Shown here: positions 32,174-35,429 of the stretch, piece by piece
How the letters are laid out: each line of letters opens with the position of its first letter
How positions within the stretch are numbered: position 1 is the first letter of the stretch
Assembly (NCBI GenBank): GCA_002726235.1
Contig: PBSN01000008.1
Span: forward strand, 510,635-574,634
Reading direction: 5' to 3'
Origin: Nitrospiraceae bacterium
Lineage (GTDB): Bacteria; Nitrospirota; Nitrospiria; Nitrospirales; UBA2166
DNA: 64,000 nucleotides
Made by a program: the position numbers and the translations under genes
Notes under the pieces: generated by a model
Database searches by the model: none
What the model was told of the DNA's origin: nothing
The model's input: only the letters and a program-made list of their open reading frames with translations

Positions 32174-32656
32174 TCATGGTCTATGCTCAAGCTGTGATAT
32201 GACAAGAACCCCGATATTAAACTGATCGTCGTATCTCAGAATCATGTGAGTATGCGTCCCAACCCACAACACATCGTGAGAAAACCGGCTCTCATCGCGC
32301 CCTGATCCAAAACGAGACGTCAACGCACTCAGCAAGCCATCGTAGTTTTCTCCATCACGATATTTGATTGTTACACGTTTAAACTTGTCCCCTTCAAATG
32401 AATATAGAATTTTCTCAACATTAATATCGCCAAAAGTTAAAGGTTCGTTTGGAAAATAATAAGTTTTTGATCCTGATGGATCATCAGACTCGCCCCACAG
32501 CACAAGACCATCAAATTCTACGACATTCGCATCCCAGGAATATCCTTTAAAGCCATTAGGGTCATTCTCAAATACCCCATCAGCTGCAGGCACTTCTGAT
32601 GGCAGAAGGAACACCGCAAACCCAATGAGAATGTACAGAGTATAAAATCGATTCAT
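32174..32656 (-). CDS. Hypothetical secreted protein
   Basis: Likely start MNRFYTLYILIGFAVFLLPSEVPAADG (signal peptide) within ORF 32174..32755. Confidence 0.7.
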   Translation of the reverse strand: MNRFYTLYILIGFAVFLLPSEVPAADGVFENDPNGFKGYSWDANVVEFDGLVLWGESDDPSGSKTYYFPNEPLTFGDINVEKILYSFEGDKFKRVTIKYRDGENYDGLLSALTSRFGSGRDESRFSHDVLWVGTHTHMILRYDDQFNIGVLVISQLEHRP

Positions 32657-32976
32657 AGTTGGTGATCCAAAGTTGACTTCGCGTATTGCTCCACATCCGA
32701 ATCCAAATCCACTCAATACACAAACCTCCACCATGGCAAAGGTTGAACGAAGCAAAGTAAGAATTTAAAAAAAACTGTTTTGGTACGGAGTGCTCCTATT
32801 TCTCAGTACATATCACCTTACATTTTTGGATTATACAAACTTTTGATCAGACGCTCAGCAAGTCATCCGTGAAAGATTAAACATTTACAACTTTAGATTT
32901 GCCGGAGGACAGATGTTATCAGGCTGGACAGAATTGCTGAATTTTAAAATCCCACGACTCCATCCAGTGTCCCATG

Positions 32977-32985
32977 TGCTACAAT
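32977..32985 (+). promoter_or_regulatory. Candidate extended -10 promoter element
   Basis: TGCTACAAT (TGn-TACAAT); weak -35. Lies upstream of the GC-rich structured region. Confidence 0.4.
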
Positions 32986-33134
32986 CGTCGAAATTTAGGG
33001 GATCACTCATCTCCGAGTCTTCCGATAGGAGGGAGGCGTCCCATGCGCTAACCGACGGCGGGTTGGCCCGTGGGTTCACGCAAGGTCTGGGCCGGCGTGA
33101 CGCAATGCATCGCCGATTGGAAGGAGGTGATCCG

Positions 33135-33185
33135 ATGGGAAGTGATAGTAGTAACCCTGCGGCGAGTGAGGTGGCAACGTTCTAG
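33135..33185 (+). CDS. 16-aa sORF within the candidate RNA
   Basis: AAGGAGGTGATCC (33121-33133) is a 13-nt match to the full anti-SD complement, then ATG..TAG: MGSDSSNPAASEVATF*. Confidence 0.45.
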   Translation: MGSDSSNPAASEVATF

Positions 33186-33236
33186 CCGCACACCTTTTTC
33201 TTCGGTGATCCCTGGGACGTATTCCCAGCGCCACCG

Positions 33237-33299
33237 GCCCGGAAGCGCGGGTGCCGGAGCCGCATTTGGATTTTCGGATCTGCTTCCGGGCTCTTTTTT
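33237..33299 (+). terminator. Rho-independent terminator
   Basis: GCCCGGAAGC (33237-33246) pairs perfectly with GCTTCCGGGC (33282-33291), followed by TCTTTTTT. Confidence 0.75.
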
Positions 33300-33359
33300 G
33301 CCTAATTCCAGTCTGCAAGGCACGCAAGCAAGGCAGTTAACACCGCCATAGCGTAAAGC

Positions 33360-35429
33360 CTAATCTTCCTCAGCTTTTGGCTTATACTGATCGATAATCT
33401 CTTGCTGAATGTTTGGTGGCACAACATCGTAGTGGCTAAGTTGCATAGTGTACGACCCTTGCCCCGCTGTCACTGCTTTCAGTTGAGATTGATATTGCCC
33501 CAATTCCGCCAAAGGCGCTTGTGCACTAATGTGGAGCATCCCACCAGGTAATGTATCGGAGCCCTGAAGACGCCCTCGCTTACTCGACAAATCCCCAGCG
33601 ATATCCCCCATATTTCCTTCTGGCACAATAATATCCATCTGGACAACCGGCTCGAGAATAACTGGCTTCGCTTTATGAATCGCATCAATCAACGCTTTCT
33701 TCGACGCAGCAACAAACGCAACCTCTTTGCTATCGACAGGATGATGTTTCCCGTCATATACACTCACTTTAATATCCTGTAACGGATATCCAGCAATGGC
33801 ACCTTGCTCCATCACTAGTCGAACACCTTTCTCAACTGCCGGAATAAACTGCCGCGGAATTGACCCTCCAAAAGTATTATTAGCAAACTCGAATCCACCA
33901 CCACGCTCCTGTGGAGCAATCCGCAAAAAAACTTCTCCAAACTGACCAGCACCCCCGGTTTGCTTTCTATGCCGATGATGTCCCTCTGCATTTCCAGTGA
34001 TGGTTTCCTTGTAAGCAATCTTCGGCGGATGAGTATCAACCTCTACGTTGTACCGGTTCTTCATTTTTTTGAGAATCACTCGCAAATGCATATCACCAAG
34101 CCCGTAGATGACAGTTTCACTCGTCGTTACATTGCGTTCAATGGTAAAGCAAGGGTCTTCGGCTTCCATACTGACCAATGCTTTCCCAATCTTTTGTTCA
34201 TCACCACGACTTTTTGCCTCAATGGCAAAACCGTTCATTGGCTGGGGAAAGTCCATCGGCTTTAATCTCACATCACCATCATCAATTTTGTCTCGCAACA
34301 CAGCATCAAATCGAATTTCATCGATCTTCGCCACGGCACAAATATCTCCAGGAATGCCCGTATCGACTTCAGCATGTTCTTTCCCCTGTAAACGCAGCAA
34401 ATGCCCTACCTTAAACGTCTTTCTCTCATCCCCAAGATGAAGCTGACTGTCCTTTTTGACCGTCCCTTGAAAAATTCGGAATACTCCAAGTTTTCCGATA
34501 AAAGGATCTGCGGTAACTTTGAATACATACGCCACAATCGACTTCGAGGGATCTGGCGTAATTTCCACTTCCTCACTATCTTCACCCTGGCCCTTGCGAA
34601 ACTCTTGCGCATTCCCTTCAGTTGGATTTGGCATCATATGTGAAAATATCTCCAATAACTCCCGCACCCCAACACCTTGCCGCGCCGATACGAAGCAAAT
34701 AGGAACTAGATGCCCGTCCTTTAACGCATTTGTAAACGGCGTATGGAGCTGTTCAGGACTCACCTCCCCTTTATCAAGGTAAGTCGTCATGAGATCCTCA
34801 TCCATTTCCACAACTTGCTCGACAATGGCTGTGTGCGCGTCAGTGGAAGATCCAAAGTCAACGTCCCCTTCCGCCTTATTAAAGACATCGACAACTGCAG
34901 ACCCTCCTCCACTGGGGAGGTTGATGGGAAGACACTCCTTGCCGAATAACTCCTGAATTTGGTCCACAACCTGCTCAAGATTAACCTCTTCTGCATCGAT
35001 TTTGTTCACAATAATTATGCGACACAGTTTCCTGTCAACAGCGCGTTCCATAACACGCCGCGCAACCATATCGACCCCATGTTGAGCCGTTATGACCACC
35101 GCGACAGTCTCGACTGCAGTAAGTGCTGAAAGCGCGTGGCCAGAAAACTCAATCATTCCTGGAGTATCGATGAGGTTAATATGGTGCCCAGCGTGATCAC
35201 AATTCACGATCGCGGAATTTAAGGAATGTTGATGCTCCTTCTCTTCCGGATCAAAATCACAAACGGTATTTTTCTTCTCAATTGATCCCAGGCTCTGGAT
35301 CATGCCTGTCTGATGCAGCAACGCCTCAACGAGAGTCGTCTTTCCAGCTGCACCCTGACCAACAAGTGCAATATTTCGAATATCTTGAGTCGTATAGCTC
35401 GGCATGCTCAAACCTCCAGTTTTGTTCAA
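33360..35429 (-). CDS. Elongation factor G-like GTPase (EF-G paralogue type)
   Basis: 689 aa; G1 VGQGAAGKTTLVEALL, DTPGMIEF, VNKIDAEE; EF-G domains IV/V (RQFIPAVEKGVRLVMEQG..AGYPLQDIKVSVYDGKHHPVDS). Confidence 0.92.
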   Translation of the reverse strand: MNKTGGLSMPSYTTQDIRNIALVGQGAAGKTTLVEALLHQTGMIQSLGSIEKKNTVCDFDPEEKEHQHSLNSAIVNCDHAGHHINLIDTPGMIEFSGHALSALTAVETVAVVITAQHGVDMVARRVMERAVDRKLCRIIIVNKIDAEEVNLEQVVDQIQELFGKECLPINLPSGGGSAVVDVFNKAEGDVDFGSSTDAHTAIVEQVVEMDEDLMTTYLDKGEVSPEQLHTPFTNALKDGHLVPICFVSARQGVGVRELLEIFSHMMPNPTEGNAQEFRKGQGEDSEEVEITPDPSKSIVAYVFKVTADPFIGKLGVFRIFQGTVKKDSQLHLGDERKTFKVGHLLRLQGKEHAEVDTGIPGDICAVAKIDEIRFDAVLRDKIDDGDVRLKPMDFPQPMNGFAIEAKSRGDEQKIGKALVSMEAEDPCFTIERNVTTSETVIYGLGDMHLRVILKKMKNRYNVEVDTHPPKIAYKETITGNAEGHHRHRKQTGGAGQFGEVFLRIAPQERGGGFEFANNTFGGSIPRQFIPAVEKGVRLVMEQGAIAGYPLQDIKVSVYDGKHHPVDSKEVAFVAASKKALIDAIHKAKPVILEPVVQMDIIVPEGNMGDIAGDLSSKRGRLQGSDTLPGGMLHISAQAPLAELGQYQSQLKAVTAGQGSYTMQLSHYDVVPPNIQQEIIDQYKPKAEED

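Follow-up and report, generated by a model that had tools for sequence, protein, structure and literature searches.

A standalone structured RNA gene of Nitrospirales, a probable relative of Ms_IGR-5, carries a conserved short ORF and may act through ribosome engagement

In our study, the window (the whole stretch of DNA analysed, 64,000 nucleotides of a Nitrospiraceae bacterium) was found to contain a standalone small RNA gene of about 309 nt, at approximately 32991–33299 on the + strand. On balance we favour the reading that it is a divergent relative of the sRNA Ms_IGR-5 which works by ribosome engagement. The original prediction described the gene as a new structured RNA and overlooked its centre, 13 nt complementary to the 16S rRNA tail and, after them, a 16-codon ORF. 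A strong Shine-Dalgarno (SD) sequence and a tiny ORF are conserved together in at least four phyla, and therefore ribosome engagement is the probable function; it is favoured over peptide production because little of the peptide is conserved from one phylum to another.

Relationship to Ms_IGR-5 and distribution

No match at the gathering level of Rfam was found in the window. With a relaxed threshold, the best match was RF02471 (Ms_IGR-5), with 20.8 bits and E = 0.0092 (cut-off 45). The RF02471 model aligned over its full length (1–184 of 184) with 33113–33299, in order and ending at the terminator, and the RF02471-like portion comprised the 3' two thirds of the window RNA. In a search of the family (59 relatives), G002 and the window gave the two best RF02471 matches. 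Three relatives from the class exceeded the cut-off, namely G163, L089 and L087 with 45.8, 49.3 and 54.6 bits, respectively, and the scores formed a graded series through the class (54.6, 49.3, 45.8, 35.0, 34.8, 34.3, 32.6, 30.6, 28.6 and 20.8 bits). Judged from these alignments, the window RNA is almost certainly a divergent Nitrospirota relative of Ms_IGR-5; it is filed as such, and not as a formal member of RF02471, because it falls below the curated cut-off. The novelty claimed for the RNA was thus retained only in part: the window itself has no formal family match (20.8 against 45 bits), but the RNA belongs near a known family, and a cmscan assignment, sub-threshold in the window, was over threshold in the three class relatives. 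Its separation from RNase P, tmRNA, 6S and SRP RNA was confirmed, with no gathering-level Rfam match, no tmRNA in the window (ARAGORN; Rfam) and no RF00013 covariance-model match in the window's genome.

Two forms of the RNA were found in the window's class, a short, Actinomycetota-like form (G163, L087 and L089) and a long form with a structured 5' domain (the window and most others). The long-form members aligned with the window over the full length. Two genomes of the same genus contained full-length copies with 88–90% identity, and their flanks were much less similar.

The core was present in named genomes of Actinomycetota, Acidobacteriota, Binatia/"Deltaproteobacteria" MAGs and Nitrospirales. 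The core pattern was found in 14 of 396 genomes of the window's phylum, all 14 in the window's class, and in 3 of 247 genomes of the phylum of the Acidobacteria locus; RF02471 matches at E ≤ 1e-4 were found in 28 of 119 genomes of the phylum of the Nocardia locus. By its sequences, the RNA lineage is evidently ancient, and it was previously described only from Actinobacteria. The literature, as partially covered here, yielded no report of an ORF in Ms_IGR-5 or of its presence outside Actinobacteria.

Weak RF02471 matches occurred in other families of the order, and the one inspected (L014) was without the SD/ORF core. L031/G064, with the SD motif and without GTGAGGTGG, and L007, a second, short blastn match in G003 lying within coding-like sequence, were set aside. 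The ORF peptide of L067, on a MAG contig labelled Klebsiella pneumoniae, was identical to that of L038 (Deltaproteobacteria MAG), and the contig probably comes from a mislabelled or contaminated bin. Family f3 of the order (e.g., L018–L027) gave a partial, central match to 6S RNA (RF00013), and families f1, f2 and f4 gave none. The Ms_IGR-5-like core was distributed in the opposite way, with f1 as the only family of the order to contain it.

Shine-Dalgarno block and short ORF

The centre of the RNA contained the following features:
33121–33133, + strand: hyper Shine-Dalgarno AAGGAGGTGATCC, complementary at all 13 nt to the 16S tail GGAUCACCUCCUU
33135–33185, + strand: 16-codon ORF encoding the peptide MGSDSSNPAASEVATF, with the stop codon TAG at 33183–33185
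33168–33174, + strand: internal SD-like motif GAGGTGG, 8 nt ahead of the stop codon, with a putative functional role

The duplex of the SD with the 16S tail was calculated at -25.1 kcal/mol, compared with -10.0 kcal/mol for AAGGAGG, and AAGGAGGTGRTCC was common to four phyla. This complementarity refers to the textbook, near-universal 3' tail of 16S rRNA and not to a tail read from the window's genome, because the 16S gene was unreadable in the window's assembly and in related ones. No rRNA with the textbook tail GGATCACCTCCTT turned up in G023, G009, G030, G044, G051 or the window's genus; in the genus the RNA itself was the sole match, and the sites matching in G023 returned no rRNA. The rRNA genes seem to be missing from these assemblies or inaccessible in them. 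The internal motif gave duplexes of -10.5 to -14 kcal/mol with the 16S tail in 18 representatives. In the MFE ensemble of the window RNA the SD was largely paired (mean unpaired probability 0.13), which counts against our best explanation.

The ORF starts two bases after the SD and reads ATG GGA AGT GAT AGT AGT AAC CCT GCG GCG AGT GAG GTG GCA ACG TTC TAG. Loci L037–L080 and L086–L099 were fetched by patterns that fixed the SD and GTGAGGTGG and left the frame, start and stop free. All 49 distinct homologues found by pattern contained an in-frame ATG, GTG or TTG after the SD. The stop was located exactly five codons after the fixed GAG (EVxxx-stop) in 49/49, where GAG GTG is partly fixed by the search pattern and by base pairing. 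The stop triplet varied among UAG, UGA and UAA, and the distance from the SD to the GAG took all three phases. As an ascertainment control, 27 further loci (L100–L126) were obtained with Rfam's own RF02471 model, and the GAG-to-stop spacing was kept in 26 of them. The exception was L121, apparently frameshifted by one additional base. For all 27 loci the start codon, near-cognates included, was called visually on the basis of position: 19 were ATG, GTG or TTG, seven were CTG, ATT or ATC, and L121 contained ATT.

The near-cognate codons were found in Actinomycetota (L112, L114, L116, L117, L120, L122 and L123), where relatives contain ATG, GTG or TTG. Near-cognate starts are of the kind that IF3 discriminates against, and their presence in some lineages could hint at IF3-type initiation stringency.

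Within the class, indels in the ORF were of 3 or 6 nt, and the variable columns were distributed 4/2/5 over codon positions 1/2/3, a spread that gives no distinct sign of coding. The class peptide kept MGS...NP(T/A)A(S/C)EVA, with several codon changes purely synonymous, and across phyla only the EV was shared. From the conserved start and stop and the indel lengths, the ORF is likely to be under selection and translated. A purely noncoding RNA was rejected as the full account in view of the ORF. Poor peptide conservation, together with the near-cognate starts, is more easily reconciled with loading driven by the SD than with an RNA made for its peptide.

Conserved fold and helices built from the ORF

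The predicted structure contained the following elements:
32998–33014, + strand: 5' hairpin 1 (GGGGAU/AUCUCC), whose loop CACU (33004–33007) pairs with AGUG of the ORF (33165–33168) in helix H1
33017–33022 with 33032–33037, + strand: 5' hairpin 2, three pairs changed on both sides
33040–33053 with 33061–33074, + strand: 5' hairpin 3, changes on both sides in 10 of 13 pairs
33077–33079 with 33097–33099 (33077–33099), + strand: 5' hairpin 4, changes on both sides in 3 of 3 pairs
33112–33115 with 33160–33163 (33112–33163), + strand: helix GCCG/CGGC, enclosing the SD and the start codon
33170–33175 with 33230–33235 (33170–33235), + strand: helix H2, GGUGGC with GCCACC, directly before the terminator; native partners pair better than swapped ones
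33212–33229, + strand: hairpin CUGGGACGUAUUCCCAG, seen in the sequence, formed in the MFE structure and already included in the original prediction

The window RNA showed a modest gain in folding energy over shuffles (MFE z = -2.1), and the z-scores were alike on both strands and not decisive. The structure claim rests on covariation, because energy alone would not prove structure. The class alignment consisted of 11 sequences (the window and 10 class relatives) aligned end to end, and the consensus fold was obtained with RNAalifold. It contained 77 predicted pairs with 94.7% of the cells paired, and 25 of the 77 pairs were changed on both sides. The double-change cells numbered 67, compared with 25.7 in shuffles (0/500 shuffles), and the signal collapsed once the partners were slid by 1–3 columns. 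The covariation in homologues, proposed earlier as a check, was therefore found, and with the class alignment, the extended -10 and the terminator it bears out a discrete, standalone structured unit on the + strand. The GCCG/CGGC helix was present in all 11 class sequences, with one pair varying to GU; its little variation gives weak covariation support.

H1 is formed by CAC-N with N'-GUG of the ORF and is pseudoknot-like in the window. The CAC-N segment immediately precedes the SD in one type of the RNA; in the type to which the window RNA belongs, it sits in the hairpin 1 loop. The loop pairing was recovered by RNAalifold unprompted in the class alignment, with U-A changed to A-U in three relatives. 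In permutation tests, the fourth, varying pair of H1 beat shuffles (0/20000 overall and 1/20000 outside Actinomycetota), and with 20 representatives from 4 phyla the native H2 pairing outscored partner swaps (0/20000), counts which overstate independence because most homologues share ancestry. Within Actinomycetota alone, the H1 pairing test was not significant. The H2 swap test, for which the segments were chosen by eye, gave 2/720 inside Actinomycetota and 104/40320 inside Nitrospirota.

This double use of the ORF bears on whether the RNA is a micropeptide mRNA, with a product of 11–18 residues ending in EV(A/V/T)xx and a structure that controls stability or translation. The conservation of the ORF in at least four phyla, and of the class peptide through synonymous changes, would suit such a messenger. 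However, the codons of EV, the only residues common across phyla, are also helix nucleotides, the residue preceding EV changes along with the H1 base, and some Actinomycetota have near-cognate starts; we consider the micropeptide reading rather unlikely. A noncoding antisense RNA that would use the 13-nt complement to mask or titrate the anti-SD at the 3' end of 16S, without translation, agrees with the 13/13 complementarity, its energy of about -25 kcal/mol and its occurrence across phyla. It leaves unexplained the in-frame start in every homologue found by pattern and the stop at a fixed codon with a free choice of triplet, and is clearly improbable.

The RNA gene and its surroundings

The gene as a whole was delimited by the following features:
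32991–33299, + strand: whole RNA gene, from end-to-end alignment with 10 class relatives and from covariation
32975–32985, + strand: extended -10 element TGTGCTACAAT, seen in the sequence, with similar boxes at the equivalent place in several relatives
33237–33299, + strand: intrinsic terminator with an internal hairpin, followed by TCTTTTTT; a 12-pair helix with 100% of the cells paired

The GC content of the RNA was 59.5%, compared with 40% and 47.5% in the two flanks, in agreement with the GC-rich island described earlier; only 0.17% of 309-nt windows had a GC content as high. The extended -10 that had been pointed out was present at 32977–32985 (TGCTACAAT), and the RNA is presumably transcribed in this organism from a predicted start near 32991. 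TGTG-N-TATA-like boxes were found at the equivalent position in G003 (TGTGTTATAAT), L086 (TGTGATATAGT), L098 (TGTGCTATATT) and L099 (TGTGTTATAGT); in the aligned relatives G002 and L097 the box was not clearly seen. A consensus promoter scanner gave no -35/-10 pair in the region of the window RNA, and no -35 was located. The perfect terminator stem of the original prediction was recovered as GCCCGGAAGC/GCTTCCGGGC at 33237–33246/33282–33291, followed by TCTTTTTT at 33292–33299, and stem and tail were the best-conserved part of the RNA in the class alignment.

The left neighbour is a candidate gene without a Pfam match (32174–32755), and the right neighbour is an EF-G-like translation GTPase (33360–35429; Pfam EFG_IV and GTP_EFTU). 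Both are located on the minus strand, the EF-G gene being convergent, and hence the RNA feeds no gene; it is not an EF-G leader, as had been argued. The neighbour genes differed among the lineages inspected, for which ORFs beyond the window were given names on visual inspection. No EF-G-like convergent neighbour was seen in the inspected lineages outside the genus. Two genomes of the genus have a similar repeat-like element (GCGTTCTCGCTTCGC...GCTCAACGTAC) adjoining the RNA, upstream in G002 (L042), where it seems to stand in place of the promoter region, and at a contig end in G001 (L005). A plasmid search and the viral_contigs scan gave no match.

A transcription attenuator, in which a leader ORF and a terminator control a downstream gene, is very unlikely in such a setting. 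With its SD, short ORF, terminator and long-range pairing, the RNA looks like a leader-peptide attenuator, and a same-strand gene follows in some lineages (TsaD-like in L071; L028). Against this, the next gene in the window is convergent, the neighbours vary, the terminator is complete, H2 does not overlap the terminator stem, and RF02471 has been reported as independent transcripts with their own transcription unit in Streptomyces (PMC8079986, PMC8780764). Least credible of all is a 6S- or Ms1-like RNA binding RNA polymerase: the size is similar, no 6S match was found in the window's family of genomes and RF02471 was at first associated with Ms1, but the consensus fold has no 6S-like central bubble, the conserved core is ribosome-related, and the RF02471 and Ms1 loci differ in S. 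lividans and M. smegmatis.

Discussion

In the reading that we prefer, ribosome engagement, the 13-nt SD would capture 30S subunits, and the captured ribosomes would start at the adjacent codon, read 16 codons and terminate at a set position. Both H1 and H2 take one strand from the 3' half of the ORF, and therefore translation would have to open both, so that ribosome passage may release the 5' domain (H1) and the pre-terminator segment (H2). From this geometry we infer that the RNA could switch between a folded and a ribosome-occupied state. The spacing of GAGGUGG, 8 nt before the stop, would allow re-pairing with the 16S tail of the terminating ribosome and its retention there. The RNA may thus hold or count ribosomes, and exert any downstream effect as a ribosome trap or as a sensor of the translation state. 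That it is such a trap or sensor, and not a source of peptide, is a tentative proposal, less likely than not; its wider form, ribosome engagement, we hold somewhat more probable than not. More speculative still, and on present sequences unlikely, is a class of standalone RNAs that trap ribosomes, ancient and shared across phyla, each with a hyper-SD and an ultra-short ORF in a pseudoknot-like fold, where the second SD-like motif would hold the terminating ribosome and the RNA would read out or buffer the status of ribosomes or initiation factors.

Ms_IGR-5, listed as a "noncoding" actinobacterial sRNA, now has relatives in Nitrospirota, Acidobacteriota and Binatia-like bacteria, and its lineage carries a translated-looking mini-ORF whose codons double as the RNA's own helices. 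The SD, start, stop, H1 and H2 provide a testable handle on the role of the family, and possibly a view onto RNA-based ribosome monitoring in bacteria.

Comparison with known systems

Ms_IGR-5, typed in Rfam as an actinobacterial sRNA, has in common with the window RNA the SD block, GUGAGGUGG, the CACC segment before the terminator and the terminator. In published Ribo-seq of M. abscessus and M. smegmatis, Ms_IGR-5 yielded ribosome-protected reads (PMC4974804). The window RNA differs in its host, which lies outside Actinomycetota, and in having about 120 nt more at the 5' end, a domain with a loop that assumes the H1 pairing.

Ms1 (MTS2823), described in Actinobacteria, is likewise a structured sRNA of similar length and binds the RNA polymerase core (PMC4191392). 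An identity of RF02471 with Ms1 was dropped, as the literature places them at different loci: in S. lividans Ms_IGR-5 lies well away from 6C, and in M. smegmatis it corresponds to ncMSMEG15794c, whereas Ms1 adjoins 6C. The two are set apart here by published locus. 6S RNA (RF00013) is also standalone and structured, but its architecture differs from that of the window RNA, and related Nitrospirales families have partial 6S matches.

Leader-peptide attenuators possess a strong SD, a terminator and a very short ORF whose nucleotides take part in long-range helices. The window RNA shares these features, but it has no downstream gene under its control. SgrS/SgrT is a dual-function sRNA that also encodes a peptide. 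Such dual-function sRNAs resemble the window RNA in being small transcripts with a conserved structure and a short ORF, whereas the window RNA has its ORF within the conserved fold and encodes a peptide of low conservation.
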